In this document: positions 2,266 to 35,477 of the stretch, piece by piece
How the letters are laid out: each line of letters opens with the position of its first letter
Position numbering within the stretch: position 1 is the first letter of the stretch
Origin: a bacterium
GTDB taxonomy: Bacteria; Hinthialibacterota; Hinthialibacteria; OLB16
Direction: 5' to 3'
DNA: 64,000 nucleotides
Assembly (NCBI GenBank): GCA_022072055.1
Contig: JAJVIK010000023.1
Span: 1-64,000, forward strand
Made by a program: the position numbers and the translations under genes
Notes under the pieces: model-generated
Database searches by the model: none
What the model was told of the DNA's origin: nothing
Seen by the model: only the letters and a program-made list of their open reading frames with translations

Positions 2266-2280
2266 AACGGCAAGGGGCGC

Positions 2281-3192: not shown

Positions 3193-3356
3193 ATTCTTGG
3201 GTGCCCTCCGGATGGGGGTGGTGGACAGTGGCGGTCAGCGGAAGCTCATCGTCCGTGTGACGCGCTCTTTGCCCCGGTTGCGGCACCGCTTGCCCGATTT
3301 GCCTTTTTCATCGGGAACTCCAATGCGGATGAGCCGCGCGGTCTTCGATTCCACCC

Positions 3357-4733
3357 CTAAATTCCATACTTCTCCCTCCGATATCCAAGCGTCCTGCGCG
3401 TGATTCCGAGGCGACGCGCGGCCTCGCTCTGGTTCCCGCCACTCTCGTGGAGGGCCTTCATGAGCAGGTGACGTTCCACGTCATCCAGCGTGGCGTGCGC
3501 CAGATCGATCTCTCCCACACTTGTGGAGTCGGTCACTCCTCGAGACAAGTCTTGACCAAAGCCGGCGCGGATGTAACCAGGGAGGTCGTTGGATTCCAGA
3601 CTGTCTCCTTCCCCCATGATCAGCGCGGCCTCAATGGTGTTCTCCAACTCGCGAACATTTCCCGGCCAGCGCCACTTTCGGAGCGCCGCCAGGAATTCAG
3701 GGGTCGCCGCCTTGAGGGGAAAGCCTTCCCGACGGGCCACTCGGCGCACGAAATGCTCGACCAAGTCCTCAAGGTCTTCGAGGTGTTCACGCAGCGGGGG
3801 GGCGACCAGATTCACAACGTTGAGGCGATAGAAAAGATCTTCTCGGAACTTCCCGTTTTGGGTCGCCTCCTCCAAGTTCCGGTTGCTCGCGGCGATGATT
3901 CGCGCTCGGGTCATCTTGGTCTGAGAGCTCCCCACGGGCTCATACTCCCGCTCCTGGAGGACTCGCAGAAGTTTGACCTGAAGAGGCGGTGGCAGCTCGG
4001 AGATTTCATCCAGGAACAGGGTTCCCTCGCCGGCCATCTCGAAGCGTCCGACACGACGCTCGGTGGCGCCGGTGAAGGCGCCCTTCACATGGCCGAAGAG
4101 CTCGCTTTCGAGGAGGTTCTCGGGGATCGCTCCGCAATTGACCCGCACCAGGGGGAGCGCCGAACGACCGCTCGCCTCATGGATGGCGCGCGCGATCAGC
4201 TCCTTCCCCGTTCCGCTTTCCCCGCGAATCAGAACGGTGCTCTGAGTCGGGGCCGCCTTAGCGATCAGTCGCCGTAGCTTCGCCATCGCCTCGGAGGATC
4301 CGACCAGTCCGCTCGGTCCCTCGTAAACCTCCAGGCGCTCGCGTAGGGCGGCGTTCTCGGTCGCAAGACGGATCTCGTTTTCGATCCGACCCATCACATG
4401 CATCAACTCTTCGTTGGGAAAAGGCTTGATCAGATAATCCACCGCCCCGGACCTGAGCGCCTCCACCGCGCTGCCCACCGTGGCGTACGCGGTCATCACG
4501 ACCACCTTCGGGGGGGACTCGGTCTTCTTGAGGGCGGCCATCAGATCGAGGCCGCTCATGCCCGGCAAGCGGAGGTCGGTTAGGACCACATCCGGGCAAG
4601 ATTCGTTCGCGGAGTCCAAGCCCGACTCGGCGCTATCCACGCACCGGACTTGCCACTGAGCCTGATCCTCGAAGGCTCGCGCGAGGAGCCTCAGGAGCTT
4701 GGCTTCATCCTCGACAATCAGGAGGCTTGGCAT
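3357..4733 (-). CDS. Sigma-54-dependent response regulator, NtrC family
   Basis: The 458-residue protein has three modules. A receiver (residues 1-120) carries the phospho-acceptor D53 in VVLTDLRLPG. A sigma-54 AAA+ domain (about 140-375) has Walker A GESGTGKE and the sigma-54 contact loop GAFTGA. A Fis-type helix-turn-helix lies at the C-terminus (NQSEAARRLGITRRTLGYRR). It would activate sigma-54 promoters when phosphorylated. No cognate kinase gene is adjacent; it lies beyond the tRNA-Thr downstream of the che operon. It may regulate unlinked genes or respond to one of the kinases at 20-26 kb. Confidence 0.93.
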   Translation of the reverse strand: MPSLLIVEDEAKLLRLLARAFEDQAQWQVRCVDSAESGLDSANESCPDVVLTDLRLPGMSGLDLMAALKKTESPPKVVVMTAYATVGSAVEALRSGAVDYLIKPFPNEELMHVMGRIENEIRLATENAALRERLEVYEGPSGLVGSSEAMAKLRRLIAKAAPTQSTVLIRGESGTGKELIARAIHEASGRSALPLVRVNCGAIPENLLESELFGHVKGAFTGATERRVGRFEMAGEGTLFLDEISELPPPLQVKLLRVLQEREYEPVGSSQTKMTRARIIAASNRNLEEATQNGKFREDLFYRLNVVNLVAPPLREHLEDLEDLVEHFVRRVARREGFPLKAATPEFLAALRKWRWPGNVRELENTIEAALIMGEGDSLESNDLPGYIRAGFGQDLSRGVTDSTSVGEIDLAHATLDDVERHLLMKALHESGGNQSEAARRLGITRRTLGYRREKYGI

Positions 4734-4933: not shown

Positions 4934-6340
4934 TCACTCCGCGCTGGAACGGATCTCCCCTCGCTCGTAATAGAAGGTTGCATGCCGCATGGCGTGCCCG
5001 ATGTTCAAGGTGTCGGAACCGATCCGCAGAGTCACCCCGCCGAAGATTGTGTCATCCGCGCGGATCGTTCCCTTGCGAGCCTGATCCAGGTCCTTCCGCA
5101 TGGCGGCCAGGTTTGCCGCAAGCGCGCTCATCCGACCCTTGAGGTTAAACTTCTCTCGGATCACTTTGACTCGGATTGCCTCCTTGTCGGGAGGTAGCGC
5201 TCCGGTCTCGCCTCGGAGATGCTCCAGCCCCCCCAAGATTCGATGGATGTCCCCCGCCTTGACCTCCAGGTCCTTGAAGTCTTCGTCCAAGGCCGTGATC
5301 TTCCTGAGCAGGTCGCTGTCCAGACCAATCTGAACCAAGGTCTTGACTCCGCTGGAGCTTCCCACGGACTTGGCCCGGACATTCTGTCCGGATCGGACCT
5401 CACCCCCGACCATGGCGCCCGGAGTTCCCTCAACCACCACCTCTCCCTGGGCGCACACCCGGCAGTTCACAAGCTGCGTGTGGATCAAGACATCCCCGCT
5501 CGCCTCGATGTCGGCCTCGCTCGCGAACTTCGCGCTCACATTTCCACCCGCGCGGATGAAGGCCTTCCCACCCCCTTGGATCCCTCCGAGGATGGTGACA
5601 TTTCCAGTGGCTTCGATCCTCGCGGCTTCCACCGCGGCGCGGACCAAGATGTCCCCCTCCGCCCTGAGCTCAAAACCCGAGAGGACATTCCCCCCCACGT
5701 CGACGCTTCCACAGAAATCTATGTTCCCGGTCTTGTAGCACACATCGCCCGCGATGGAGTACAACTTGGAGAGGGTGAATCCATCTCGCCCTGAAACCAG
5801 CGCTCCGTCCTCGGTCGCGACGGCGAGGCGCCCGTCCTCAAGGAGCTCTATCCCGGATCCCACCGGAATGGAAACCTCGTGGCCATCCTCCGGAGGGACC
5901 GGGTTCCCGAAAACATCCGTTCCAGGTTCACCCGGAATGGGATCATGCTTGCGGACCAGTTGTTGACCCTTGGAGACATTCAAGATCAGGTTGAGGCGCT
6001 TGTGATCCACCCCTCCGTTCTCGGTTACCCATGCGCGACCATCCAATTTGAGCGGATCGACATAGTATTCGAGATAACCGTGGGCCGGCGGACCGGGCGG
6101 GACCCCCCTCGCCACAACAACCCAATCGGATTGAAGTCCTTGGAGTGCCGTTTCCAGGATTTCCCGGTCCACCTGAGCCGTTATTCCCGCGGCGCGAAGA
6201 GCCTCGATAATCTCATCACCGGTGGGGGAAGGCTCGGGGTCCGGAACGCCGCGGCACAGCAGGGCGAGCGAATCCACGCTGACCCGCCACTCAATCGAGC
6301 CGACCTTCCCCTTGCGTGTTTCCTGGTCAAGGACGGGCAT
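4934..6340 (-). CDS. FapA / DUF342 family polymer-forming protein
   Basis: This 468-residue protein has the DUF342 (FapA) architecture. An N-terminal region is followed by a right-handed beta-helix-like segment of short repeated strands (for example VDVGGNVLSGFELRAEGDIL, then similar units). The C-terminal part is predicted to be helical or coiled coil (about residues 330-440). FapA proteins in other bacteria form polymeric or membrane-adapting platforms; the biochemical role is otherwise poorly defined. The start codon is directly adjacent to the cheB stop, so it is the last gene of the che operon. That position suggests a link to the localisation or output of the chemosensory system (inference). 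Confidence 0.8.
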   Translation of the reverse strand: MPVLDQETRKGKVGSIEWRVSVDSLALLCRGVPDPEPSPTGDEIIEALRAAGITAQVDREILETALQGLQSDWVVVARGVPPGPPAHGYLEYYVDPLKLDGRAWVTENGGVDHKRLNLILNVSKGQQLVRKHDPIPGEPGTDVFGNPVPPEDGHEVSIPVGSGIELLEDGRLAVATEDGALVSGRDGFTLSKLYSIAGDVCYKTGNIDFCGSVDVGGNVLSGFELRAEGDILVRAAVEAARIEATGNVTILGGIQGGGKAFIRAGGNVSAKFASEADIEASGDVLIHTQLVNCRVCAQGEVVVEGTPGAMVGGEVRSGQNVRAKSVGSSSGVKTLVQIGLDSDLLRKITALDEDFKDLEVKAGDIHRILGGLEHLRGETGALPPDKEAIRVKVIREKFNLKGRMSALAANLAAMRKDLDQARKGTIRADDTIFGGVTLRIGSDTLNIGHAMRHATFYYERGEIRSSAE

Positions 6341-7861
<1,521 letters not shown>

Positions 7862-7872
<11 letters not shown>

Positions 7873-8251
7873 CGCTCACCCCCATTTGTTCCTCCACGAT
7901 TTCCCGGATCCGCTCCGGTGTGAACGGCTTGCGCACATAAGCGCGCGCGCCCAGATTCATCAGCTCCTCGATCCCCTGTTGATCCTGTTCGGCTGAAACG
8001 ACCACGACAGGAATTCGGTCAAGCAGCTCATCCCCCTTCATTCTCCGAACCAGCTCAAGGCCATCCATGACCGGCATATTGATGTCCGTGAACATGAGAT
8101 CGACCCAATGGTCGCTCAGGATCGATAGCGCCTCGGCCCCATTGCGCGCCTGGAACAGGGTTCCGACCGGAACTTGGGCCAGCCTGAGGGTCTTCGCGAA
8201 GAAATCGCGCACGGTCCCTGAATCGTCCACCACCAGTATGTTGAACGCCAT
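7862..8251 (-). CDS. cheY: CheY-like single-domain response regulator
   Basis: This is a 129-residue stand-alone receiver. Phospho-acceptor D56 lies in LMFTDINMPVMDG, the acidic pair is in LVVDDSG, the conserved Ser is in VVVVSAEQD and the Lys is in YVRKPF. The ORF track extends to 8416, but the ATG at 8251 is preceded by a strong GAAGGAGGT ribosome-binding site and the extension is not receiver-like. It would be phosphorylated by the CheA of this operon and dephosphorylated by the overlapping CheC/CheX gene product. The output target (flagellar, pilus or other) is not visible, because no motility structural genes are in the window. Confidence 0.92.
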
Positions 8252-8292
8252 GAGTCGCACCTCCTTCTTCCGAAGTCGCCTGGCGACCGGTC

Positions 8293-8811
8293 TCAAAGCT
8301 CCCGCCGGACTGTTCCGCTGCGGATCCGCGTTCGCCCCGTGGCAATCTCCAGGGAAACGGTTCTCGAGATCGATCCGCCGATGTCCTCGGCGGCAATCAG
8401 GATGTCGTTTTTCCAAAGAACTTTTCTCAACACCGCGTAGTTTCTCTCGCCGATCCGAAAGAACCCCTTTTCATCCTGGAGTTGCGCGCAACCCGCCACC
8501 TTGGCGACCAGGTTGCCGCGCTTGGCCCCACGGTCGAACAGCTCCTGGAGAAACGCCTGAACACCGGCATCCGTGAACATGAACGGGTTCTCACGGCACT
8601 TTTCGGGGGCGATCTTCGAGAACGGGAGCATCGAGTGGAGCAGTCCGCCGGTTCGAGTCCTGGGGTCATAGAGCGACAGCCCCAGGCAGGATCCGAGAGA
8701 GTAGGTGATAAGCGTGTCCCCCTGGTTGTCGGAGACCTTCATGTCCGACACCCCCACGGTGACAAGCCGGGCCTCGGTCACGGTTCCCATGCGGTCAGCG
8801 GCGGCCGTCAT
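8293..8811 (-). CDS. cheD: Chemoreceptor glutamine deamidase CheD
   Basis: CheD deamidates receptor glutamines and can interact with CheC-family phosphatases. The 172-residue product shows the catalytic Cys motif LGSCLGLSLYDP and the His motif GLLHSMLP. The substrate-handling Thr/Ser region is in the C-terminal half. The start overlaps the cheR stop by 4 bp. Its presence with cheX/cheC in the same operon fits the Bacillus/Thermotoga-style adaptation arrangement rather than the enteric one. Confidence 0.93.
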   Translation of the reverse strand: MTAAADRMGTVTEARLVTVGVSDMKVSDNQGDTLITYSLGSCLGLSLYDPRTRTGGLLHSMLPFSKIAPEKCRENPFMFTDAGVQAFLQELFDRGAKRGNLVAKVAGCAQLQDEKGFFRIGERNYAVLRKVLWKNDILIAAEDIGGSISRTVSLEIATGRTRIRSGTVRREL

Positions 8812-9608
8812 GATGGCTTCCTGTAAACGGTTGGTTTGACGCTCTTGAAATCGCTGACCATGCCGGTCAGCCCCTCGGCGTGACCGACGAGCAGGAGTCC
8901 GCCCGGTTTGAGCAGCCGGTACATGTCGGCGAGCAGCCGCGCGCGGATCAGGTTGTCGAAATAGATCAACACGTTCCGGCAGAAGATCACGTCCAGCGGG
9001 CCGCTCATCGGGTAGGGCGGCGTGGCAAGGTTGAGCCGCTTGAATGCCACAACGGATTTCAACCCCTGGCGCACCTGGAGTCTTCCGTCCGGCGTCGGTT
9101 CAAACAGACGGTTGCGCATGCTCTTGGGAACCTTGTCGACCTGCTCGGAGGCGTAAATCCCCGCCCGCGCCCGATCCAAGACCTTGGTGGACAGATCGGT
9201 CGCCAGGATGCGCACATCCGCTCCGGCGCCGTCGAGAGCCTCGGCGAGGGTGATTGCCATGCTGTACGGCTCTTCACCGCTGGAGCAGGCCGCCGACCAG
9301 AATCGAAATCTCTTCTGTCCCCGCTGGAGGCACTCGCGCGCATGGTCCCGCAGCAGATCAAAGTGGTGCGCCTCGCGGAAGAAACTGGTCAGATTGGTGG
9401 TGATGCAGTCGAGGAATTTGACCAGCTCGTTTCCGGATGCATCCCGCATGAGCAGATCCAGATAGACCCGGGGATCCTCGATGCGTAGTTCCCTCATCCG
9501 TTTGGAGACGCGAGTGTTGACCAGCGCCTCCTTATTGTCTCCGAGAGCGATGCCGCCCTTCTCATAGGCGATCATTCGGAATGAGTTGAATGTGGCCTTG
9601 TCCAGCAT
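8808..9608 (-). CDS. cheR: Chemotaxis protein methyltransferase CheR
   Basis: CheR methylates MCP glutamates using S-adenosylmethionine. The N-terminal helical domain has TSFFREAHHFDLL and the SAM-binding region is SAACSSGEEPYSMA. The motif IFCRNVLIYFD is typical of the family. The ORF extends to a GTG at 9635, but the ATG at 9608 follows a GAGGA ribosome-binding site with good spacing and gives the standard CheR start (MLDKATFNSFR), so I chose it. It lies downstream of two MCP genes whose last residues look like CheR-binding tethers. Confidence 0.92.
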   Translation of the reverse strand: MLDKATFNSFRMIAYEKGGIALGDNKEALVNTRVSKRMRELRIEDPRVYLDLLMRDASGNELVKFLDCITTNLTSFFREAHHFDLLRDHARECLQRGQKRFRFWSAACSSGEEPYSMAITLAEALDGAGADVRILATDLSTKVLDRARAGIYASEQVDKVPKSMRNRLFEPTPDGRLQVRQGLKSVVAFKRLNLATPPYPMSGPLDVIFCRNVLIYFDNLIRARLLADMYRLLKPGGLLLVGHAEGLTGMVSDFKSVKPTVYRKPS

Positions 9609-9663
9609 GGTCGTCTTCCTCGTCATTCCTTTCACTCAAACGCAACCGACCGGGAGTTGACCG

Positions 9664-9716: not shown

Positions 9717-11495
9717 TTAGAAGTCCTTGAAGTCGTTGTCCTCCAGCGGAATCACCTCATCGCCGCGAACATGATGATCCCTCACTCCCGCCTGAGCCAA
9801 GACGCCCAATGAGCCGTTTCCGTTCAGACGGTTGAAACGGGGCGCGACCGATCGGATGTGAGATTCGGTCCGTGGGTGGGAGTGGTCCGCCACCGCCTTT
9901 TGTGTTTCCTTCCTGGCAGAGTGCGCGGCCAAGTCCACTCGATTCTCGCGCGCGGCGGAGTCCCCGCGGACCACGGCGATCAAGCCCTCCACGATCTGCT
10001 TCAGTTCCTCGGCCTGGGCCGAGAGCTCCTCGCTCGCCGAGGCCGACTCCTCGGCGTTGGAGGCGTTGGACTGGGTGACCTTGTCCATCTGAGCTACCGC
10101 GCTGTTGATCTGATCGATGCCCTGAGCTTGCTCCTGACTCGCCGAGGTCACCTCCCCGATCAGCTGCGCCACCTTGCGGATCCCCGCGACAATCTCATTC
10201 AGGATCGCCTCGACCTCGCCAGAGGCCGAGACCCCATTCTCGGCGTTTCGCTGGGACTCTTCGATGAGCGAGGAGGTGTTCTTTGCCGCTTCCGCGCTGC
10301 GTTGGGCGAGATTCCGGACCTCCTCGGCCACCACCGCGAACCCTTTTCCCGCCTCGCCCGCGCGCGCCGCCTCCACCGCCGCGTTCAGAGCCAGCAAGTT
10401 GGTTTGGAAGGCGATCTCATCGATCGTTTTGACAATCCGGGCTGTCTCATCCGAGGAGCTCTTGATGCGCGACATGACCTGGGACATCCGGGTGACCGCC
10501 TGTCCACCCTTCTCGGCGGCGGATTGGGCGCTGGTGGCCATTTCGTTGGCGAGACGGGCGTTGTCCGCGTTCTGGCGGGTCATGGAAGCGGTCTCCTCCA
10601 AACTGCTTGAGATCTCCTCAAGCGCGCTGGCCTGCACACTGGCGCCCTCCGCCATCTGTTGGCCTGAGCCGGAGAGCTGACCGGAAGCCGCGGTCACTTC
10701 GTTGGCGCCGTTCAGGAGCGCCTCGGCGATGCGGGAAACCGGACGCTCCACGCTCCGGACGATGACCAGCGCGAACACCAGCCCCATGACCAGAAGCCCC
10801 CCGCCCACGGTCCCGCCCGCCATCCAAGTGGCGGCGGCGATGCGTTGATCCGCCTCGTCCAGCGACTGCACCACCTCAAAGGCGCCGTGAATCTCCCCCT
10901 CCTTCCAACCCTCCATCGGTTGGCCGGTCGGGTCGATCCCCTCGGGGTTGCCCCAGAGCTCCTTTGAGGTGGCCGGGTCGCCATGGCAGAGCAGACAGGT
11001 CTTGGAGAGCTTCACCGGACGGAAATACCGGACCGCGTTCTTCTGTTTGTCCACCTCGAAATACTCCGCCTGGTTCTGCTCCTCCAGGGCCTTGAGAGCC
11101 CGGGCCTCAAGCTCATCCGGTTCATTCTTGGGGTTCCGAGGCTGGAATTTCGGAACCTTGAACTCATAGCCGCCCTCCTTGGCCTTGTTCATCGCGGCCT
11201 TCCAGGCGGTCACCACCGGAATCGCATCCAACATCTTGGCCCGCTCTCCCTCCTCGGCCCACTTCCGAATCATCTCGGGGGTGAAGACTCCCTGCCGCCA
11301 CTTGTCTTCCATGCCCTCTCGCGTGGATTCGGCGGTCAGGCAGATCGCCCGCGCCTTTTCCACGTACGACTGCACCGCCTGCTTCCTGACATCCGCCCGA
11401 TACATGGCGAACAACACCAGCACGAGCCCCGCGGGCAACAACAAACCGACTGTCAGAATCTTGCTCCTGAGTGACTGGCTTCTCGTTCCCAACAC
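9717..11495 (-). CDS. Methyl-accepting chemotaxis protein with Tll0287-like (DUF3365) haem-type sensor
   Basis: The 592-residue receptor has a membrane helix (about 13-30), a periplasmic domain (about 31-225), a second helix (227-247), a HAMP-like region and a methyl-accepting signalling domain. The tip motif lies in [16 protein letters not shown]. The periplasmic part resembles DUF3365/Tll0287 domains and contains C167-LL-C170-H171, a covalent c-type haem attachment motif. This implies redox, oxygen or NO sensing (inference). The C-terminus ends in DNDFKDF, matching the aromatic-x-x-aromatic pentapeptide that tethers CheR, CheB or CheD. It is the second MCP of the operon. Confidence 0.92.
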
Positions 11496-11633: not shown

Positions 11634-14483
11634 TTAGAAGTCCTTGAAATCCTCTTCATCCAGCGGGAAGGCTTGCTCGCCGGAGCCAAGACTCTCTCCC
11701 ACGAGCGCCGGGGTCCGCCTGGAACGGCCGTTTCCTGCCGGCTTCATCGCGCCAACCTCAGCGGGTGAATCGTGATGCAGGATCGAGTGAATCCGACTGC
11801 CGGCGTGACCCTCCGCGACCTTCAAGTCGCTGACCTTGCGGATCTTCTTCCGCCCCTCGGAGGATGTCGGGACACCGTTTGAACGCGCCTTGTTTCCACC
11901 GATGATCGCAACCAGGACGCTGACCATTTGCTTGAGCTCCTCGGCTTGGGCGTTGAGCTCCTCGCTGGCCGAGGCGGATTCCTCCGCGGTCGCCGCGTTG
12001 GACTGAGTCACCTTGTCGAGCTGCGCCACCGCGGTGTTGATCTGCTCGATCCCCTGGGCCTGCTCCTGGCTTGCGGCGGTGACCTCGCCGATCAGATGCG
12101 CCACGCGCTGAACGCCCTCGACGATCTCCCGGAGGATTCCGCCCACCTCCTGGCTGGCGGCCACCCCCTCCTCGGCGTTTTTCTGAGAGCCTTCGATCAA
12201 GTTGGATGTGTTTTTGGCCGCCTCGGAGCTGCGCTGGGCCAGGTTGCGGACCTCCTCGGCCACCACCGCAAAGCCCTTCCCGGCCTCGCCCGCCCGCGCC
12301 GCCTCGACCGCCGCGTTAAGAGCAAGCAGATTGGTCTGGAACGCGATTTCGTCGATGGTCTTGATGATCTTCGCGGTCTCGTCCGAGGAGGTCTTGATTT
12401 TGGCCATCACCTCGGACATGCGATCCATCGCGCCGGTCCCTTTCTCGGCGGCGCGGCGCGCCTCCGTGGCCATCACATTCGCCTGGCGAGCGTTGTCGGC
12501 GTTCTGGCGCGTCATCGAGGAGGTCTCCTCCAGGCTGCTGGAAATCTCCTCCAGGGAGCTGGCCTGTTCGCTTGCTCCCTCGGCCATGGACTGACTGGAG
12601 GACGAAATCTCCCCGGAGGCGGCGGCGACCTGATCCGCCCCCTGGTTCAAGCCCTCGATCACGCGATTGATTGGGCCGGTGATCGAACGTGTCACCAGGA
12701 AGGCGATGAGGATGATCGCGGCGACTCCGACCGCGGCCACGATCAACATCATCGAGCGCAGCAGGGTGACCGCCGCGAACGCCTCGGCCTCATCCTTGCG
12801 CACTCCAAGCGCCCAGTTCACATCGAAAGCCTTCACGGGGGCGTAAGCGGTCAGAACCGGTGTTTCCACCCCGGTCACGGCCTTGGTGTAGGCGGTTCCG
12901 ACGGCCGCCCCGGTTTCGCCGGTCAGGGCCGCATCGATCATGCTGCTCTGGCACTTGATTCCCTTGGCGAAGGTGTTCGCCACCGAGAAATTCTCGCTGT
13001 CCAGGGGCGAATCCGCGCGCATGTGATGGTCCGGGCCAACCAGGAAGGTCTCCCCGCTCTCGCCCATTCCCTCCCGGCTTTGCACGACCTGGTTGATCGA
13101 GTCCAGGGAGAGCTGCAGGCCGACCACGAGTTCGACCTTGGAGGTTTTGGGATTGACCACCGGCTGGGCGATGAACGCCGCTGGGATGCCATTGCTGGGG
13201 GAGTAGGGGGCGAAATCCGCGAACCCGAACTCCTTGGACTGAACGACCTTCCGCACCAGGGACCCCATGTTGGAATCGGCCCACTTGCCGTTCACGAAAT
13301 TGGTTTGATAGTCCGGCTCCTTGGCGACCGTGTAGAAGCAGTAGCCGTCGGGATTGATCAGGAAGAGATCGTAGTAGCCGTAAAGGTTGGTGTATTTCTC
13401 GAAATAGAACTTGCCGTCCTCGTCCTTGGGGCAAAAGGCCTCCGAGACATCGATATCCGCGATGAGCGCCCAGGTCACATCGCCGGTGGTGATCGGAGTG
13501 TAGGCGGTCACAACCGGATTCCCCTTGTAGTTGGCATGCACCCCGGCTCCGGAGTCTCCAGCCAAAGCCAGTCTGACCGACTCGGTCTCAACCTTGCCCA
13601 GTTCGGGCTTCTGGAAGGAGGCTTGGACGCTCCTGTTCTCGGGGTCCATCAGCGAGTCGGAGCGCATGAGGAAATCCCGCCCCACCAGGTACGCCTCGCC
13701 GGTTTCCCCCATGCCGGTTCGCTCCTGCATGATCTCGGTGATTTGCTTCAAGGAGATCTGGAAGGCGGCCACGCCGGCGACAGCGCCCGAAGAGTCGGCG
13801 AGGGGAGTCGCCACGAAGGCCGCCGGAGCCTTGGAGGGTTCGTACCAAGCCAGGTCCACAAAGGTCGTGCCGCCGCGTCCCTGACGGAACGCCTGGGCCA
13901 GCACGCTGTCCTTTAAGGGGCCGGTCTCCAGGTTCGTTCCCCAATCTCCCTCCTTGGCCACGGTGAACACGACATTCCCGGCGCCATCAATCAACATCAC
14001 ATCATAGAATCCGAAGATGTCGCAGAAGATCTTGAGGCCCGCGAGTCGTTTCTCGTAGACAGACTTGTACTCCGGGCTATCCAGCCCCTTGGCGAAGGCC
14101 TCGGAGAACGCGGGCAGCCCTTCCACGAATCGGAGGTTTTTCTGCACATCGGTCATCAGCGCCAGTCGCTCGGAGAGGTATCGAGTGATCTGGGCCTTGC
14201 GCGCCTCGCGGATGGAAGTCAGCTTGTGGATCGCCTCTTCCCTTAGGGTCCCCACGGTTTCCACCAGGACCTGCATGTCCCCACGGCGTTCACCGAAATA
14301 TTTTTCAAGTTGGCTCTTCTTGATTTCCCGCACGCTTTCCAGCTGCCCATAGACCTGCTCCGAAAGGGAAGAGGAAGCCTTGTTCAGCGAAATGACCCCG
14401 ACAACCGTGAAGGGAATGAGCCCCACCGCGAGAAACGACAGGAGGAGCTTGGTTCCGAGTTTGAGCTGACGGCGAGTTGACAT
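11634..14483 (-). CDS. Methyl-accepting chemotaxis protein with duplicated periplasmic sensor
   Basis: This large 949-residue receptor has membrane helices at about 12-33 and 576-598. The long periplasmic region contains two homologous copies (about 148-349 and 358-569). Each copy has the pattern of a Cache-type module: [10 protein letters not shown] versus [10 protein letters not shown], and [15 protein letters not shown] versus [19 protein letters not shown] and an MCP signalling domain nearly identical to that of the neighbouring receptor follow. The last residues EEDFKDF again form a probable CheR/CheB/CheD tether. It follows cheW by 36 bp. Small-molecule sensing is expected, but the ligand is unknown. 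Confidence 0.92.
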
Positions 14484-14519: not shown

Positions 14520-15059
14520 TCAGTCCTCGTCCTGGGATTCCACAACAGCTTGGTTTGAGTCCGCGACTTCCTTGGTGGTCAGGAGCAGATCGCAGTCGAT
14601 CACCATCACGCTCCGATTGCCCACCTTGCCGATCCCGGTGATGAATTCGGTGTGAACATCACAGCCGAACGAGGGGGGAGGCTCGATCTGATCGCCGACA
14701 ATATTGAGGACTTCGGAGACCTCATCCACCAGAAGGCCCATCACCACCGGCCCGCCGGGCGCGTTGATCTGCACCACGATGATGCAAGTGCGCTCCGTGT
14801 CGGCCTGGCGCTCCATGCCGAATTTGAGGCGCAGGTCCAGAACCGGGATGACCTTCCCTCGCAGATTGATCACCCCTCGAATGAAGTTGGGCGTCCTCGG
14901 AACGCGAGTGATGGGCATCAAACCGATGATTTCCTGAACCTTGAGGATCTCGAGCCCATACTCCTCGCGATCGAGGTGGAAGGTCAGGAACTTGCCTCCC
15001 CTTACCGAAGGGCGCTCCAAGACCGCGGGGCCGGTCCTGGAATTGGATTGTTCGGCCAT
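14520..15059 (-). CDS. cheW: Chemotaxis coupling protein CheW
   Basis: CheW links MCP tips to CheA. The protein carries the two SH3-like subdomains: KFLTFHLDREEYGLEILKV followed by the strongly conserved VPRTPNFIRGVINLRGKVIPV. Three starts are possible. The ORF-track start (15134) overlaps cheA by 46 bp; an ATG at 15092 overlaps the cheA stop as ATGA; the ATG at 15059 has a GGAGAGGAG ribosome-binding site at good spacing. I chose 15059. The 179-residue length is typical apart from a short acidic C-terminal tail. Confidence 0.94.
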   Translation of the reverse strand: MAEQSNSRTGPAVLERPSVRGGKFLTFHLDREEYGLEILKVQEIIGLMPITRVPRTPNFIRGVINLRGKVIPVLDLRLKFGMERQADTERTCIIVVQINAPGGPVVMGLLVDEVSEVLNIVGDQIEPPPSFGCDVHTEFITGIGKVGNRSVMVIDCDLLLTTKEVADSNQAVVESQDED

Positions 15060-15088
15060 TTCGTGTGTGTCTCCTCTCCTGTCGTTGT

Positions 15089-17992
15089 TCATGAGCAAAG
15101 CGCCTCCTCGGGGAGGAGGATCTCTTCGATCCATTCAAGGGGGTCCCCCTGGTCAAGTCCGCGCGCGGGGACGTTGCAGCCGCCGGCGAGCCGGACCAAA
15201 CCGGCCACGTCCAGGATCAACCCGACCCGACCGTCCGGCATGATCGCCCCACCGGAGAGTCCCACCATTCCGCGGAAGGTCTCGCCCAGCGGCTTGATGA
15301 CAATCTGCTGCTGACCCAGGAGCTGGTCGACAAGAATCCCGATCCGCTTGCCCTCGTTCTCCACAACCACCACCGTGGCCTGAGAGGGAGCCTGCTCGGC
15401 GCCGTGAACACGGAAGAGCCGATCCAGTCGGAAGAGCGGGATCAGGTTCCCTTGGACCTTGAGCATTTCCCCCTTTCGCAACACCGTGGAAATGTCGCTC
15501 GGGGCGGGGCGTATGGATTGGATGATGGAAAGGGTCGGGATGATGTAGCGCTCGCCGGCCACGCGCACCACCATGCCGTCGATGATCGCCAAGGTCAGCG
15601 GAAGACTGATGCTGAAGATCGTGCCCATGCCCGGCTCAGACAGGATCTCGATCTGTCCCCGCAGCGACTCGATGTTGCGTTTGACCACATCCATGCCCAC
15701 GCCCCGGCCGGAGACATCGGTGACCTTCTTGGCGGTGGAGAAGCCGGGTTGGAAGATCAAGTTGAAGATTTCGCGATCCGAAAGACTTTCCCCCTCGCGA
15801 ACCAATCCCTTCTCGATGGCCTTGGTCAGAATGGCGTCCCGGTCGAGTCCGCGGCCATCGTCCTGGACCTCGATGTAGATGTTTCCCCCCTTGTGAAAAG
15901 CGCGCAGTTCCACACGGCCGGTTTCCGGTTTTCCGCCCGCGAGTCGATCCGCCGCGTGGGCCTCGATCCCGTGATCGACCGAATTCCGGATCATGTGCAC
16001 GAGCGGATCCCCGATTCGGTCCACGACCGTCTTGTCCAATTCCGTGTCCTCGCCGGTCATGACCAGCTCCACCCGCTTGCCCGACTTCTTGCCGAGATCA
16101 CGAACCAGGCGCGCCATGCGCTGGAAGGTGGCCCGGACCGGCACCATGCGCAGGGAGGTTCCCATTTCCTGGAGCTCGCGGGTGATCTTGTTGAGTTGGG
16201 TGAGGTGCCGGATCAGCTGCGGGGAAGCGACCTGGCGGAGCTCCGAGGATTGGCTGACCATCGATTCGGCGATCACCAATTCCCCGATGGTGTCGATCAG
16301 GCGATCCAACCGCGCGGCGTCCACCTTGACCGGCTCGGCGATCTGCATGGAGGGCTGAGCCCCCGCGACCTTCTGGCCGCGGATGCCGCGCGCGACATCC
16401 CGCGCATCCACCTGCTTTTCCCGAACCAGGATTTCACCCAGCTTGGGTCTGACTGGGGGAAGCTCCTGTCTATCGAGGGCGCGCTCGAGATCCTCGGGGG
16501 ATATCTCTCCCCCCTCGACAAGGATTTCTCCAAGCTTCCGATCGGGGGCGTGTTCGCGTTGAATCTCAAGGGCCGCGTTCACCTTGCGCCCCGAGACCGC
16601 GTTGGCCTCGATCAGAATCTCCCCAATTTTCTTACGCGCCGGCGGGTGCCGCTGGGCTTTCAGCGCCTCGGCGACCGCCTCCTCGGTCACGATTCCATTT
16701 TCGATCAGAGTGTCCCCAAGGCGCTTGTTCGGACCGGGGGTCTCGGACTCGATTGGGGACGAGGCACGCTGGGGTTCCCCCGAGGCGATTCTACGGATCT
16801 TCTCAATCAGACTCGGCAGATCGGGTTCGATTGAAATCGGCGCGCCGCTCGCGAAGGCGTTGTTCGCGTCCTCGATCAGGCCCTTGAGCATGTCCACCGT
16901 GTCGAAAATCACATCGATGGCATCCTCGGCCAAAGCCAGCTTCCCGTCGCGCGCCAGCCCGAGCAGGTTCTCCGCTTCATGGGCGAGCTCGGCGATCTGA
17001 CGATGCCCCAACATTCCGGCGGAGCCTTTGATGGTGTGGAAGGCCCGGAAGACCGCGTTCAGTGATTCGGCGTTCTCCGGGTCGGTCTCGATGGTCAACA
17101 GGTGAACATTGGCGTTTTCCAGGTGCTCATTCGACTCCGTGATAAAGCAGCTCATCATCTCCGGACTGGCATCGATCACAAACGCCGGATCGAAGGTTGG
17201 GAGGGAAGCGCGCGGGCGCGAATCCATAACGGGCCCCGGTCCGACGCCGGAGTCGGCCGGCTCGCCCTCGGCCTTTTCGGAGCGTGGCCCGCAACGATGT
17301 TGGACCTCGCGTGAGATTGCCTGGAGCGCCGAGATCCCCTTTCCCACCCGCTCCCAGGCATCCTTGGGGGAGTCGGTTTGGGGATCGACCAGGATTTCCA
17401 GGAGCTCCACCAGCTCGAACACGATCTCACCGCCGCGGTAGTCGCAGGTTTCAACGGCCCCGCTTTTGACTCGCTGGGCCAACAAAAGCAGCTCCCGAAG
17501 GTCCTCCTGGCGGCCGGGGTCAGCCAGGACGTAGCACGAAGAGAGGCTTTCCACCCACTCTCCGAGCTCCCGGCAAGAACAGCCCGGGTCCCTGTCGCTC
17601 GCCCCTTTTTCGGAGGCCTCCCAACTTTCAACCTCCACGCTCACGACTTCCAGGCTGGAGGCAATGGCCTGAATCTCGTGGGGGAGCTTGTCGCTCGCGA
17701 GGCGCACGACCAGCGGGGCGCCATCCTCAAGGCTCCCGTCCGCGCGCACATCGGGAACCGCCTCTTCAATCGTTCCAATCTGCGCCAATCGCTGGAGCGT
17801 GAGCAGCGCGCGGAGGTTCAACATCGGCAGGTTCTCCACATGGTGAAGGGTGACCCGCCATCGTCCTTCGCCGGATGCGCTTCGGTCTTCCTTGGGGGCA
17901 ATGTCGGTGGGGCGAGTGTCTTTCTTGGTCACGATCGTCTCTCTCGTTGAGATTGGGTTTGCCTTCCGAACTCTGTTCCTTGTGGTCCTCAT
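15089..17992 (-). CDS. cheA: Chemotaxis histidine kinase CheA with four MshEN-like repeats
   Basis: The 967-residue kinase uses the start at 17992, whose ATGA overlaps the preceding ORF stop. Order of domains: an N-terminal region (about 40-125) with P2/ferredoxin-like features; a helical stretch; an HPt domain with phospho-acceptor His319 in AFHTIKGSAG; four short repeats (423-541) of the form LGEILVEGGEISPEDLERALDRQ; P3 dimerisation; a P4 ATPase (HMIRNSVDHGIE, DDGRGLD, GRGVGMDVV); and a P5 CheW-like domain. It phosphorylates the CheY and CheB encoded downstream. The repeats resemble the MshEN/GspE-N fold, which in some type II secretion and MSHA ATPases binds cyclic-di-GMP. Confidence 0.95.
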   Translation of the reverse strand: MRTTRNRVRKANPISTRETIVTKKDTRPTDIAPKEDRSASGEGRWRVTLHHVENLPMLNLRALLTLQRLAQIGTIEEAVPDVRADGSLEDGAPLVVRLASDKLPHEIQAIASSLEVVSVEVESWEASEKGASDRDPGCSCRELGEWVESLSSCYVLADPGRQEDLRELLLLAQRVKSGAVETCDYRGGEIVFELVELLEILVDPQTDSPKDAWERVGKGISALQAISREVQHRCGPRSEKAEGEPADSGVGPGPVMDSRPRASLPTFDPAFVIDASPEMMSCFITESNEHLENANVHLLTIETDPENAESLNAVFRAFHTIKGSAGMLGHRQIAELAHEAENLLGLARDGKLALAEDAIDVIFDTVDMLKGLIEDANNAFASGAPISIEPDLPSLIEKIRRIASGEPQRASSPIESETPGPNKRLGDTLIENGIVTEEAVAEALKAQRHPPARKKIGEILIEANAVSGRKVNAALEIQREHAPDRKLGEILVEGGEISPEDLERALDRQELPPVRPKLGEILVREKQVDARDVARGIRGQKVAGAQPSMQIAEPVKVDAARLDRLIDTIGELVIAESMVSQSSELRQVASPQLIRHLTQLNKITRELQEMGTSLRMVPVRATFQRMARLVRDLGKKSGKRVELVMTGEDTELDKTVVDRIGDPLVHMIRNSVDHGIEAHAADRLAGGKPETGRVELRAFHKGGNIYIEVQDDGRGLDRDAILTKAIEKGLVREGESLSDREIFNLIFQPGFSTAKKVTDVSGRGVGMDVVKRNIESLRGQIEILSEPGMGTIFSISLPLTLAIIDGMVVRVAGERYIIPTLSIIQSIRPAPSDISTVLRKGEMLKVQGNLIPLFRLDRLFRVHGAEQAPSQATVVVVENEGKRIGILVDQLLGQQQIVIKPLGETFRGMVGLSGGAIMPDGRVGLILDVAGLVRLAGGCNVPARGLDQGDPLEWIEEILLPEEALCS
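16370..16726 (-). repeat. Four tandem MshEN/GspE-N-like repeats inside cheA
   Basis: Four units of about 30 residues follow one another between the HPt and dimerisation domains. They begin KRLGDTLIENG, KKIGEILIEAN, RKLGEILVEGG and PKLGEILVREK, each followed by an acidic helix ending in Q. The linkers are Pro/Arg-rich. The pattern is the [RK]LGxxLxxxxxLxxxxLxxALxxQ half-motif of MshEN domains. Confidence 0.8.
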
Positions 17993-18399
17993 CGGGGGAC
18001 GGCCATCGCGCCTCGGCGCCATCCGATGTTTTCCGTTTCATGGGAAAGCCGCTCCAGCACCGCCGCGATTTCCATGAAATCGCCGTCGATATAGCTGATG
18101 ACTCTCGGATAGAGGGCGTGGGCCCTGGTAATGCTGTCGTCGCTCCGGTCCGGCAGGATCAGGATCGTGCGCAGGTCCTGAAAGAGATGGCTGACAGCGC
18201 AAAGATCCAGGAGGTCCCGTGGGGTCGCAGCGAGGAAGATCGCCAAGTCGCAGTCGTAATGGGGCTGGCGCAACCTGCAAGACAGGGTCTTTAGGGTTCG
18301 AAAGATTTCCAGTGTGTGCGCGGCTTCTATTTGAGCGAGGACCTGTTGGAGGCGCGCTCCGGGTCCGGATTCGGTTGGCAGATAGAGGAGCAGTTTCAT
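17989..18399 (-). CDS. Conserved hypothetical protein at head of che operon (receiver-like)
   Basis: The protein (136 aa from the ATG at 18399) begins MKLLLYLPTESG and contains hydrophobic strands (DLAIFLAATP, TILILPD, RVISYIDGD) alternating with helices, suggesting a receiver-like alpha/beta fold. I see no clear phospho-acceptor Asp. The first part of the ORF-track extension (to 18477) lies at and upstream of the sigma-54 promoter, so the 18399 start is preferred. I recall similar proteins in other chemosensory clusters, but the function is unknown. Its stop overlaps the cheA start (ATGA), so it is probably translated together with CheA and may act as a pseudo-receiver partner. Confidence 0.75.
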   Translation of the reverse strand: MKLLLYLPTESGPGARLQQVLAQIEAAHTLEIFRTLKTLSCRLRQPHYDCDLAIFLAATPRDLLDLCAVSHLFQDLRTILILPDRSDDSITRAHALYPRVISYIDGDFMEIAAVLERLSHETENIGWRRGAMAVPR

Positions 18400-18461
18400 C
18401 GTTCTGGTGTGTTCGCGTCCCTTTTCACCCGGAGTCGTTTCCCGGGCGATCTGGGTCAATA

Positions 18462-18476
18462 ACAATTGACGTGCCA
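18462..18476 (-). promoter_or_regulatory. Sigma-54 (-24/-12) promoter of the che operon
   Basis: On the minus strand the sequence TTGGCACG-TCAA-TTGTT matches the sigma-54 consensus YTGGCACG-N4-TTGCW at all but one position (T instead of C in the -12 GC). The start site would fall near 18450, about 50 nt before the ATG at 18399. A gene for an NtrC-type activator ends 125 bp upstream, so activator and target are adjacent. Confidence 0.75.
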
Positions 18477-18581
18477 AAAACGCATGAAATAATGGATATG
18501 AGTGAAGTCATTAAAACATGAGAAAAATGGAGGGAAGTGGATGTATTACAGTACCGCAAAGATGGAAATGTGTCCCACGGA

Positions 18582-31819: not shown

Positions 31820-32107
31820 GCCGGAGCGCCAACGTCGGGCGCCAAGCCACGCTTGCCCCGGCAGAAAGAACGCCATGAGGATCGAGGCGGCCACGCGCAG
31901 GCCCCATTTCCAATCATCCGCCTCGGTCCAGGACCAAGCGAAGAACAAGCCGATCAACGCGCTGTTGGACAACCAAGCCAAGCCGACCTGGTCCATCTCC
32001 GGAAGAGGGCGCGCCCTTGACAGGGCGATCCCCGCCAGGACGGCAAGGGACGTAACCACCAGCGGGCTGAAGTAGAGGAACGCGTCGAGCTCGGATAGTT
32101 CACCCAT
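31712..32107 (-). CDS. Hypothetical four-helix integral membrane protein
   Basis: The 131-residue product has about four hydrophobic helices (near residues 10-30, 44-60, 69-86 and 98-125), joined by short Arg/Trp-rich loops such as EADDWKWG and RRWRSGSRG. I recognise no family. The start overlaps the stop of the tetrad-repeat gene by 8 bp, indicating translational coupling in the nadD operon. Its last 108 bp overlap the 3' end of the convergent Na/Pi gene. A role alongside the repeat protein is inferred from coupling only. Confidence 0.65.
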   Translation of the reverse strand: MGELSELDAFLYFSPLVVTSLAVLAGIALSRARPLPEMDQVGLAWLSNSALIGLFFAWSWTEADDWKWGLRVAASILMAFFLPGQAWLGARRWRSGSRGWVTLVLLGALLCFQLPILVVLLFRVFDSGPIR

Positions 32108-35100
32108 GGACAGTGGAAAGAATCCCCTTGTAATACAGAAGGTCCCGCCGCATTTCGCCGGAAAGTCCGGGGAGATGGCTTGCGGCCTCCAGGACTGAAA
32201 GCGCCTCAGCGGAGCAATTCTTCTCCATGAGGCACTGCGCGAGCATTAACGAGGCGTAGCCCTTGTCCTCTGAGGGGATGTCCGCCTCGCAGGCGAACCG
32301 GAAGTGGGGAATGGCTTCGTCGTATCCATTGCGCTCGAAGGCCTCATTCCCAAGGGCGATGGCCTGACGGGCGTCCGGCGCGCGCTGGCCGCCATTCCCG
32401 CCGATCGCCACGATCGCCTCGGACGCCGGCGGGATCTCGGCTTCGCGAGATTTCTCAAGCATGCCCTCGGAGCGCTTGATTTCAACCGGTCGCGGCCCCG
32501 CCGGAATCTCTTGGCTGGGAGGCTCGGACTTGGTCGCCGAAGGAGGCTCGACCTTTTCACTCAAGACCGCGAAATAATCCTCGGCGGTCCCCAAGGCGTG
32601 AGTGGCCGCTTGTCGGGCGGATTCCCGGACCACTCCGGTCACCGCCTCCTCGGCCACCTGACGCGCCACTTGCTCGGCGACAATCTGCGCGATTTCGGTC
32701 ACGACCATCTGGGCGGCCTGGATCGCGGTCTTGCGCGCGACCGCCTCGGCGGAATGGGCGACGACTTCCTCGGCGGCGGCGCGCGCGGCCTGTTCGGCGA
32801 CACTCCGCGCCATTTCGCGCGCGGCCTCCGCGGCCATCTGTTCGGCGACCTCGCGCGCCACCTGCATCGCCACCTCCCGCGCGGTGTCCGAGGCCGCGAG
32901 AGCGACCACCTCATGGGCCGCCTCCGTCGCGGCCTTCCGAGCCACCTCCACCGAAAAAGTCCGGGCCTGCTCCTCGGCGGTGGCGCGCGCCACCTCGGCG
33001 GCGGAGGCTTCGGCCACCTGTTCAGCCGCCTGTTTGCCCACCTCGCGCGCGACCTCGCGGGCCTTGCGCGTGGCGGCCTCGCGGACGGCGTCCCGGGCAA
33101 ACTCCCGGGCCGCTTCCTCGGCGATGCCGCGCGCGGTGGCGCGGACCGTTTCCTCAACCACCTGGCCCGCCACCTCGCGGGCAATCGCCTCGGTGTGGCG
33201 GTCCACCATTTCACCGACCAGCTCCTCCGCGACATACTGGGAAATGCGGGCGGAAGCCTTTTCCACAACCTCATCGGCGGTCAGGCGCGCGACTTCCTCG
33301 GCGATCCCTCCGGCGCGCTCGCGAGCAACCGCCTCAATCGCCTTGATCGCGGCTTCCTGAACCAACGGGCGGGCCGCTTCCTCTGAAAGGGTTCGGGCCA
33401 ACTCGGCGGCTTGGCTTGAAGCGATCCCTCGAACCGCTTCCTCGGCGGCGGCGCGCGCGCTTTCAGTCGCCACTTGCTCCGCGAGCTCGCGAGCGACTGT
33501 CTCCGCGACCTGCTCAGCGGTGGTCCGGGCCACCTTGCGCGCCACATTGGCGGCCCCCTTGCGCGCGATTTCCTCGGCGGCGGCCATCGCCGCCTCGCGC
33601 GCCACCTCGGCGGCCACTTGTTCGGTCAATTCCCTGGCCGCCTCATGCGCTACCCTCTCGGTGACCTCGCGCGACATCTTGCGCGCGGTTTCGGTGGCGA
33701 TCTCTCGCGCCGCCTCCGCCGCGGTGTCGGTGGCGACACGATTCGCGGTCTCTCGCGCCACTGATGCGGCCACCTCTTCCACCGCCGCCACCGCCGCCTC
33801 GGCGGCGACGCGCTTGGCGGTGTCCACCGCGACCGCCTCAGCCACCTCGGCGGCGGATTTCTCGGCGATGCGTCCGGCCACATTCGTGGCCGCTGAGATC
33901 GCGACCTTGTGCGCGATCTCTCGTGCGATCCCTTCCGAGGCGCCTCCGGCAACCTCCGCCGCCACCGCGCGGGCGGTTTCTCCCGCAACCTGCTCGGCGG
34001 TTCGCGTGGCCACCTCGACTGCTTCCAGTTCGGCGATTTCAGTTGCTCGCGCTTGAGCCGCCCGCGCCGAAACATCGCGCGCCGTTTCGCCCGCGACCCG
34101 AATCACCACTTCATGCGCCGCGGCCGTGGCCGCCTCACGGACCGCTTCCTCGGCGATCCCGCGCACCACCTCCTCGGCGATCCGCCTGGCCGCGGCCTCG
34201 GTGGCCTCGCGGGCCGCCTCTACAGCGACTTGCTCGGCCACCGCCGAGGCAAGGGCGGGCGCGATCTCTTTGGTTTTTTCCACCGCCGCCTTGTCGGCCA
34301 CTTCCCTCGCGATGGCTTCGGCGACGCGCTGGGCGGCCTTGTCCGCGACCGAGCGCGCGACCCCTCCCGCCACCTGCTCGGCGGTCTCGCGGGCCACCTC
34401 GGCGGCGTGGGTTCGAGCGATTTGTCCCGCTTCCTTGGCCGCCACTCCCTCGGCAACGCCAAAAGCGGTCTCCTCGGCGACCTTCCGCGCGACATCGCCC
34501 GCGACTCGCGCGGCGATCTCCTCGGATAGGACGCCAGCCACTTCGGAGGCGGTCTTTCGGGCTTGGAATTCCGCGACCCCCTGGGTGGTTTCGCGCGCGG
34601 ACTCCTCCGCCAGCGCGGTGGCGATCTCTCGAGCCGCGATCTCCGCGACCCGCGCGGCCACGCGCTGAGCGGTCTCCTCGGCGGTCTTCTGGGCCACCTC
34701 GCGCGCGGTCGCCTCGCTGATGGCGTTGGAAACCGAGCGCGCCACCTCCGCGGCGGTGCGTTCGGCGATCTCCCGCGCGCTCTCCTCGGCGGTCTTGCCG
34801 GCGATCTCGCGCGCGGCGAGGGTCGCGGTCTTCGAGGCGGTTTCCTCGGCGGTCTTCTCCGCGATTTCGGCGGCGGTCTTCTCGCTGATCGCTTGAGCGA
34901 CCTGGAGAGCGACCACTTTGGCGGTGCTTTCGGCGACCTCCGAGGCGGCCTGGTCGGCTTCGCGAGTGATCGGGGCCGGGTGCGCGGACGATTGCAGCGC
35001 GACCACGTTGGAGGGAGTGGGAGTCGGCTCCGCCGTTGGGGCCGTTTCCGTCGGGGCGTACCCCTCAAGGAGCGAGGAAAGGTCCACGGGCGAGGACTCC

Positions 35101-35477
35101 TCGGGCGCGGCCTCCTGAACCGTCCCTCCCGGGGTCGATAGGTCGTCCGGATGAATGCCTGTGGTGGGAATCTTGAGTTCCTGGGCCCAGCCCAGCGCGG
35201 CCTCCGAAAGGGGGATCTTCCGCGCCTGGGCATACAACTCCACCAGATTTCCCCCCTTGTGTCCCGGGCATTGGCCGTAGGAGCACCGGAAAGTCCTCTT
35301 GGACACATCGATGGTGAGGGTTCGGATGACCTCGTCCCGATGGATCGGGCAGAAGGAGCGCAGCTGAGCTCCGAAGCGCTGCACCTTGTCCACTCGGAAC
35401 CCGATCTTCTTGAGCGCGACCTCCGGATCGAGTTGGAGGCAGACCGCATCCAGGAGTTTCTGTCCCTTGGGTGTCAT
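32100..35477 (-). CDS. CHC2-like zinc-finger protein with 198 tetrapeptide (x-x-x-Ala) repeats and TPR-like tail
   Basis: The 1125-residue protein has three parts. Residues 1-110 resemble a primase-type CHC2 zinc region: C43-PI-H46, then C65-SYGQ-C70 followed by PGHKGGNLVELY. Here the second pair is C-x4-C rather than C-x2-C. Residues 110-170 are a Pro/Thr linker. Residues 171-962 are 198 consecutive tetrads such as REVA, EQVA, EETA, with the fourth position Ala in about 161 and otherwise Ser, Thr, Val, Ile, Leu or Gly. The register never shifts. Residues 1035-1125 look like TPR-type helices (LGNEAFERNGYDEAIPHF). It overlaps nadD by ATGA. I recognise no family for the repeat region and assign no function; a long charged helix and a nucleic-acid-binding head are suggested by composition. 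Confidence 0.85.
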   Translation of the reverse strand: MTPKGQKLLDAVCLQLDPEVALKKIGFRVDKVQRFGAQLRSFCPIHRDEVIRTLTIDVSKRTFRCSYGQCPGHKGGNLVELYAQARKIPLSEAALGWAQELKIPTTGIHPDDLSTPGGTVQEAAPEESSPVDLSSLLEGYAPTETAPTAEPTPTPSNVVALQSSAHPAPITREADQAASEVAESTAKVVALQVAQAISEKTAAEIAEKTAEETASKTATLAAREIAGKTAEESAREIAERTAAEVARSVSNAISEATAREVAQKTAEETAQRVAARVAEIAAREIATALAEESARETTQGVAEFQARKTASEVAGVLSEEIAARVAGDVARKVAEETAFGVAEGVAAKEAGQIARTHAAEVARETAEQVAGGVARSVADKAAQRVAEAIAREVADKAAVEKTKEIAPALASAVAEQVAVEAAREATEAAARRIAEEVVRGIAEEAVREAATAAAHEVVIRVAGETARDVSARAAQARATEIAELEAVEVATRTAEQVAGETARAVAAEVAGGASEGIAREIAHKVAISAATNVAGRIAEKSAAEVAEAVAVDTAKRVAAEAAVAAVEEVAASVARETANRVATDTAAEAAREIATETARKMSREVTERVAHEAARELTEQVAAEVAREAAMAAAEEIARKGAANVARKVARTTAEQVAETVARELAEQVATESARAAAEEAVRGIASSQAAELARTLSEEAARPLVQEAAIKAIEAVARERAGGIAEEVARLTADEVVEKASARISQYVAEELVGEMVDRHTEAIAREVAGQVVEETVRATARGIAEEAAREFARDAVREAATRKAREVAREVGKQAAEQVAEASAAEVARATAEEQARTFSVEVARKAATEAAHEVVALAASDTAREVAMQVAREVAEQMAAEAAREMARSVAEQAARAAAEEVVAHSAEAVARKTAIQAAQMVVTEIAQIVAEQVARQVAEEAVTGVVRESARQAATHALGTAEDYFAVLSEKVEPPSATKSEPPSQEIPAGPRPVEIKRSEGMLEKSREAEIPPASEAIVAIGGNGGQRAPDARQAIALGNEAFERNGYDEAIPHFRFACEADIPSEDKGYASLMLAQCLMEKNCSAEALSVLEAASHLPGLSGEMRRDLLYYKGILSTVHG
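32592..34967 (-). repeat. 12-bp-periodic tetrapeptide repeat array
   Basis: This is the DNA for the 198 tetrads. The period is 12 bp over 2376 bp with no insertion or deletion of other length. Copies are highly diverged at base level, so it is not a recent microsatellite expansion. The periodicity also creates long spurious ORFs on the plus strand. Confidence 0.9.

Follow-up and report, generated by a model that had tools for sequence, protein, structure and literature searches.

We identified a chemotaxis operon on the minus strand of the window, the whole 64,000-nucleotide stretch of DNA analysed here (contig JAJVIK010000023.1, positions 1 to 64,000). Its genes run in the order cheA-cheW-mcp-mcp-cheR-cheD-cheY-cheX-cheB-fapA (Table 1). 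FliG is encoded elsewhere in the genome, and the combination of a che operon containing fapA with FliG in the same genome makes flagellar chemotaxis the likely output. The genome has a second che operon (L197) of similar order, whose CheA is 76% identical to that of the window in the kinase core. In both operons, a protein of 162 to 169 residues with no Pfam family lies directly upstream of cheA (positions 7030-7539, plus strand, in L197). These two proteins are 32% identical (E 6e-18), and are possibly degenerate receivers.

The cheA product is identified as a CheA by its HPt domain with a phospho-acceptor histidine, its P3, HATPase and CheW-like domains, and its setting in a che operon. The kinase boxes and His 329 are intact. 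Four tandem units of 24 residues each, designated R1 to R4, form a block at 16373-16723 between the HPt and P3 domains. The first-pass annotation had described this reading frame, domain order and set of four units, and all of them were found where it had placed them; its residue numbers did not stand, being ten lower than ours, as if counted from the methionine at residue 11. It was also correct in putting the P2-like domain before the HPt domain, with a PF07194 score that is barely above the Pfam cut-off. The paralogous CheA reaches only 18.3 bits with the same model (cut-off 23).

Table 1. Chemotaxis genes, CheA domains and half-motifs in the window, with one further open reading frame (positions are those of the window).
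Feature	Position	Strand	Basis
FapA family protein (flagellar assembly protein A)	4934..6340	-	PF03961/PF20250
cheB	6341..7405	-	
cheX-like phosphatase	7402..7872	-	PF13690
cheY-like receiver	7862..8416	-	
cheD	8293..8811	-	
cheR	8808..9635	-	
Methyl-accepting chemotaxis protein, Tll0287-like sensor	9717..11495	-	
Methyl-accepting chemotaxis protein, dCache	11634..14483	-	
cheW, overlapping the cheA 3' end	14520..15134	-	NCBIfam NF007903
cheA, 977 aa: P2-like, linker, HPt, four MshEN half-motifs, P3, HATPase, CheW-like	15089..18022	-	ORF, Pfam, NCBIfam
P5 CheW-like domain, residues 816-944	15191..15577	-	PF01584
P4 HATPase, residues 672-810, N-box RNSVDHGIE at 679	15593..16009	-	PF02518
P3 dimerisation domain, residues 565-620	16163..16330	-	PF02895
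Half-motif R4 KLGEILVREKQVDARDVARGIRGQ, residues 527-550	16373..16444	-	Matrix score
Half-motif R3 KLGEILVEGGEISPEDLERALDRQ, residues 496-519	16466..16537	-	Matrix score, NF053729, structural match
Half-motif R2 KIGEILIEANAVSGRKVNAALEIQ, residues 465-488	16559..16630	-	Matrix score
Half-motif R1 RLGDTLIENGIVTEEAVAEALKAQ, residues 434-457	16652..16723	-	Matrix score
HPt (P1), residues 288-379, phospho-acceptor His329 in FHTIKG	16886..17161	-	PF01627, 69.9 bits
P2-like response-regulator-binding domain, residues 55-132, N-terminal of HPt	17627..17860	-	PF07194, 25.0 bits, cut-off 23
162-aa protein without known family, directly upstream of cheA	17989..18477	-	
1125-aa open reading frame	32100..35477	-	No Pfam match at E 1e-4

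MshEN half-motifs were defined as at least two tandem copies of the 24-residue pattern (R/K/L)LGxx(LVI)(LVI)xxG(LVI)(LVI)xxxxLxxxLxxQ, of which the window CheA has four. With a position matrix built from non-CheA half-motifs only, R1, R2, R3 and R4 scored 35.8, 40.8, 50.6 and 27.4 bits, while the next-best segment of the CheA scored -5.0 bits. Chance or low complexity as the source of the half-motifs was excluded by shuffling, the best of 2000 shuffles scoring 12.8 bits. The copies depart from the consensus mainly in the turn, with N10/A11 in R2, E11 in R3 and K10/Q11 in R4, so that the glycine at position 10 is missing in R2 and R4 and the hydrophobic residue (L/V/I) at position 11 in R2, R3 and R4. 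Position 17 is valine in R1, R2 and R4. All three spacers are seven residues long, and the canonical five-residue spacer and 53-residue total are not matched.

The curated NCBIfam model NF053729, "cyclic di-GMP-binding domain-containing protein, MshE-related", describes 53 residues with two motifs. It matches the window CheA with 83.1 bits (cut-off 38, E 8.8e-24), the best match falling on R2 and R3, and the isolated half-motif segment with 102 bits. A sequence search of the PDB with this segment found Thermus PilF (E 3e-14), PilB and Vibrio cholerae MshE. A match to the Pfam MshEN profile, PF05157, had been put forward in the first-pass annotation as the check on the family; none was found at E up to 10, either in the window CheA or in the isolated segment, yet this profile also misses true half-motifs. 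In a control PilB (L058), PF05157 covers residues 86-171 and the two half-motifs lie at residues 32-84; when isolated, they too have no PF05157 match. The miss is uninformative because the model covers the subdomain that follows the half-motifs, which has no counterpart in the window CheA. As the control PilB illustrates, the absence of PF05157 from a protein in Pfam should not be taken as the absence of c-di-GMP half-motifs. Weak matches to DUF4388 (PF14332, 26 bits on the isolated segment) and FumaraseC_C were rejected as a separate identity, since true PilB half-motifs match these models as well and the repeat is therefore the same.

In MshE, the guanines of c-di-GMP are stacked by arginine 1 and by leucines 17, 21 and 2 of the motif; the amides of G3 and of the next residue hydrogen-bond the guanines, and Q24 holds ribose and phosphate (PMC5013675). 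Work on PilF has widened position 1 to R, K or L, with 6 nM for lysine and 150 nM for arginine, and has found that isoleucine in place of leucine at position 17 or 21 costs only about 2.4-fold, large hydrophobic residues being allowed there; the rules call for G3 and Q24, both of which proved important (PMC11731258, PMC12002112). We applied the contact rules of these three papers by Wang 2016 and Neissner 2024/2025 (R/K/L at 1, hydrophobic at 2, G3, large hydrophobic at 17 and 21, Q24), and R1 to R4 conform to them throughout: position 1 is R/K/K/K, position 2 is L/I/L/L, position 17 is V/V/L/V, position 21 is L/L/L/I, and G3 and Q24 occur in all four. The loss of contact residues that the first-pass annotation named as grounds for rejecting its proposal was thus not seen. 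The absence of the C-terminal subdomain MshEN_C is no obstacle to binding, because Wang et al. 2016 (PMC5013675) reported a c-di-GMP affinity of 0.35 µM for MshEN_N by itself (residues 1-62). Across 87 CheAs from three phyla, G3 is conserved in 98-100% and Q24 in 94-96%, and both are among the three positions of lowest entropy, in a sample drawn with motif-bearing queries and so biased towards G3 and perhaps Q24.

An AlphaFold2 model of the segment, made from an alignment of eight four-motif CheAs, has eight helices alternating between about 7 and 12 residues, with a mean pLDDT of 83 and a pTM of 0.55. In this predicted model, R2-R3 forms a four-helix bundle of the MshEN_N type and superposes on c-di-GMP-bound PilF-GSPIIB and MshE with Z 10.9-11.1 at 1.5-1.6 Å over 57-58 residues; the first match outside MshEN/PilB domains has Z 4.8. 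Foldseek ranked the same PilF-GSPIIB and MshE chains on top, though its E-values exceeded 0.1. A longer model that includes the HPt and P3 domains gave the R2-R3 match again and recovered the CheA P1, the pTM across models being only 0.55-0.58. The structural prediction agrees with the first-pass proposal of MshEN-like repeats and, together with NF053729, the PDB sequence matches and the contact residues, makes the assignment of the repeats as MshEN-type c-di-GMP half-motifs well supported.

How the four half-motifs pair is less uniform in the evidence. The pair that matches known MshEN structures is R2-R3 in both models. By likeness to two-motif CheAs, R1 and R3 are of the first type, R4 is of the second type and R2 is ambiguous, which suggests the pairs R1-R2 and R3-R4. 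Compared by eye with R1 to R4, the second of the two half-motifs of the window CheA's own paralogue resembles R4, and the first resembles R1 or R3. Each CheA protomer most likely has one or two sites for c-di-GMP.

The first-pass annotation implied that this architecture was singular, which proved mistaken: it is widespread in sampled genomes of three phyla, and an MshEN-CheA was already mentioned in 2016. A whole-CheA query against named genomes gave no match; a repeat-based alignment query found half-motif CheAs in Hydrogenedentota, Sumerlaeota, Zixiibacteriota, Fibrobacterota, Gemmatimonadota and others, as well as in Desulfobacteraceae and in Planctomycetota including Brocadia and Scalindua. 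Using a profile of the last two motifs plus P3 (E 1e-18 or better), we found module-bearing CheAs in 33 of 68 genomes, other than the window's own, sampled from the phylum of a Hydrogenedentota member, in 126 of 297 (about 42%) from the phylum of a Desulfobacteraceae member, and in 31 of 294 from the phylum of a planctomycete. Four motifs, mostly with 7-residue spacers, are present in 24 of the 30 CheAs inspected from the Hydrogenedentota member's phylum, and two motifs per CheA are the rule in the other two phyla. Shorter spacers, of 1-2 residues, occur in CheAs of Myxococcota, Rhodospirillales, Spirochaetia, Geobacteraceae and Scalindua (L063, L074, L084, L085, L036, L076); these half-motifs may form a different bundle and not the same site.

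A phylogenetic tree of CheAs had the window protein beside Hydrogenedentota proteins. A FastTree analysis of the kinase core puts the window CheA in a four-motif group, with the two-motif paralogue from its own genome as its sister; CheAs of the same class that lack the motifs form a clade nested in this group, with moderate support. This nesting suggests that half-motifs were lost, their number falling from four down to two and to zero. Where the half-motifs would stand, other CheAs of this class have a linker rich in Pro and Ala, and the module is therefore dispensable.

Half-motifs also occur in proteins other than CheA. A 1066-residue Hydrogenedentota protein (L199; G014:C129:22500-28500, 1458-4658, plus strand) has three tandem cassettes of an HPt-like domain and four half-motifs. 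Its HPt-like copies lack the phospho-histidine (FYSSKW in one, FYTIKW in two), and the cassettes are followed by TSP3 and dockerin-like repeats, with no kinase. Three proteins of about 360-370 residues (L029, L057, L059) have six half-motifs in three pairs, with spacers of 5 or 6 residues within pairs and of 18 and 12-13 between pairs; no CheA kinase box was found in the frames read.

The window's genome encodes c-di-GMP cyclases, with GGDEF matched four times and an intact GGEEF in two or more of these matches, as well as five PilZ proteins. The half-motifs of its three motif-bearing PilB/GspE-type ATPases (L003, L006, L007; G000:C7:139409, C7:71649, C6:106474) are degenerate, and these enzymes may no longer bind c-di-GMP. 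The best-preserved MshEN motifs that we found in this genome are therefore those of its two CheAs.

We establish here that the motifs exist, where they lie, how widely they occur and that their contact residues are intact, and the fold is predicted. The best overall explanation is that MshEN_N bundles in the P1-P3 linker bind c-di-GMP and gate CheA, to which we assign a probability of roughly 60%. In this flagellar-type chemotaxis kinase, the linker contains four MshEN_N-type half-motifs in tandem, and pairs of them would fold as four-helix bundles with one c-di-GMP per bundle, giving up to two ligands per protomer and up to four per dimer. Bound c-di-GMP would close the stretch that joins P1 to P3, or make it stiffer, altering the access of P1 (His 329) to the P4 ATPase domain or the phosphate handover to CheY and CheB, and chemotactic output would thereby be weighted directly by the cellular c-di-GMP level. 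Binding by the half-motifs of the window CheA is probable. An effect on kinase activity or phosphotransfer lies further from the evidence, and the odds for it are about even.

The module occupies the position of P2 in the E. coli enzyme, and it could have become a docking platform in P2's place, for a response regulator, a PilZ protein or some other partner, with c-di-GMP binding lost. Among our structural matches is Xanthomonas PilB, whose MshEN-like N-terminal domain serves as a surface for PilZ binding (7lkm/7lko), and the five PilZ proteins would be available as partners. We nevertheless consider docking alone unlikely, since it leaves unexplained the near-invariant G3 and Q24 (94-100% in CheAs of three phyla), which have mostly disappeared from the copies in the genome's own ATPases, and since the window CheA still has an N-terminal P2-like domain. 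Slightly less probable again is that the repeats do bind c-di-GMP and act mainly in the placement of CheA or the assembly of arrays, at a pole or with type IV pili, and not on kinase activity. Pilus and secretion ATPases are where MshEN domains natively occur, and the motifs lie in a linker dispensable for catalysis, where CheAs of the same class have Pro/Ala-rich sequence. A pilus role is not indicated by a chemotaxis operon with FapA in a genome with FliG, however, and the repeated cassette of L199, in which an HPt-like domain and four motifs multiply as one unit, points to coupling with the HPt domain.

The motif number of zero, two or four among close relatives, including two in a paralogue with so similar a kinase core, could also be explained if the module were a ligand-free spacer of helical hairpins kept for its length. 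Such hairpins need a hydrophobic core and not Q24 or G3, yet these two residues are among the most conserved positions. Of the rival readings, the near-invariant glutamine and glycine weigh most against an inert spacer, which we regard as very improbable.

c-di-GMP is known to influence chemotaxis through the receptors, through their methylation and through the motor. In the literature searched, we found no direct control of CheA by c-di-GMP, and neither binding or kinase data nor dedicated work on any MshEN-CheA. The pairing of MshEN with CheA is not new, being named in the text of Wang et al. 2016 (PMC5013675). The present analysis adds a four-motif form that lacks MshEN_C, the placement between P1 and P3, the frequency and the conserved ligand contacts. 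Since MshEN-CheAs are common in several phyla, c-di-GMP may tune chemotaxis signalling directly, and the frequency of about 42% in the phylum of the Desulfobacteraceae member means that the question concerns a large bacterial group. It is an evenly balanced proposition that many Hydrogenedentota, Desulfobacterota and Planctomycetota share a large, overlooked class of CheA gated directly by c-di-GMP through MshEN_N motifs between P1 and P3, with the four-motif dimer reading four sites. If so, four sites per dimer could yield a steep or graded response, there would be a direct control point linking c-di-GMP to chemotaxis, and the motile-sessile decision would be placed inside the core complex. 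Some carriers of an MshEN-CheA are cultivable, such as Desulfospira joergensenii (L077), whose CheA has two motifs.

E. coli CheA has the order P1-P2-P3-P4-P5, with P2 between P1 and P3. The window CheA shares P1, P3, P4 and P5 with it, including the intact phospho-histidine and N-box, and differs in having MshEN motifs and no recognised P2 in the linker and a P2-like domain at the N-terminus. With the MshEN_N of V. cholerae MshE (PDB 5HTL; PMC5013675) it shares the 24-residue motif with R/K-L-G, paired hydrophobic residues and the LxxxLxxQ tail, as well as the predicted four-helix bundle at 1.5 Å; unlike MshE, it has four motifs rather than two, 7-residue rather than 5-residue spacers, K1 in three motifs and no MshEN_C subdomain, and the context is a kinase rather than an ATPase. 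Lysine at position 1 is also found in a GSPII-B motif of Thermus thermophilus PilF (8PDK; PMC11731258). PilF GSPII-C has, by alignment, three consecutive motifs with a 7-residue spacer between the first two, as in the window CheA, and still binds c-di-GMP with proline at position 1 of motif II; PilF differs in being a pilus ATPase with a C-terminal subdomain and measured c-di-GMP binding (PMC11731258). The fusions of Wang et al. 2016 have the same pairing of MshEN and CheA and are named in one sentence that cites a supplementary table, the text containing no CheA experiment (PMC5013675). Direct control of a histidine kinase by c-di-GMP is known from Caulobacter ShkA, where a pseudo-receiver domain binds the ligand and there is no relation to MshEN or to the arrays of chemotaxis (PMC7010744). 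MapZ and the PilZ chemoreceptors Tlp1 and Cbp1 likewise couple c-di-GMP to chemotaxis, but they do so with PilZ domains, through chemoreceptor methylation or at the receptors, and not within CheA (PMC6370697, PMC6454048).
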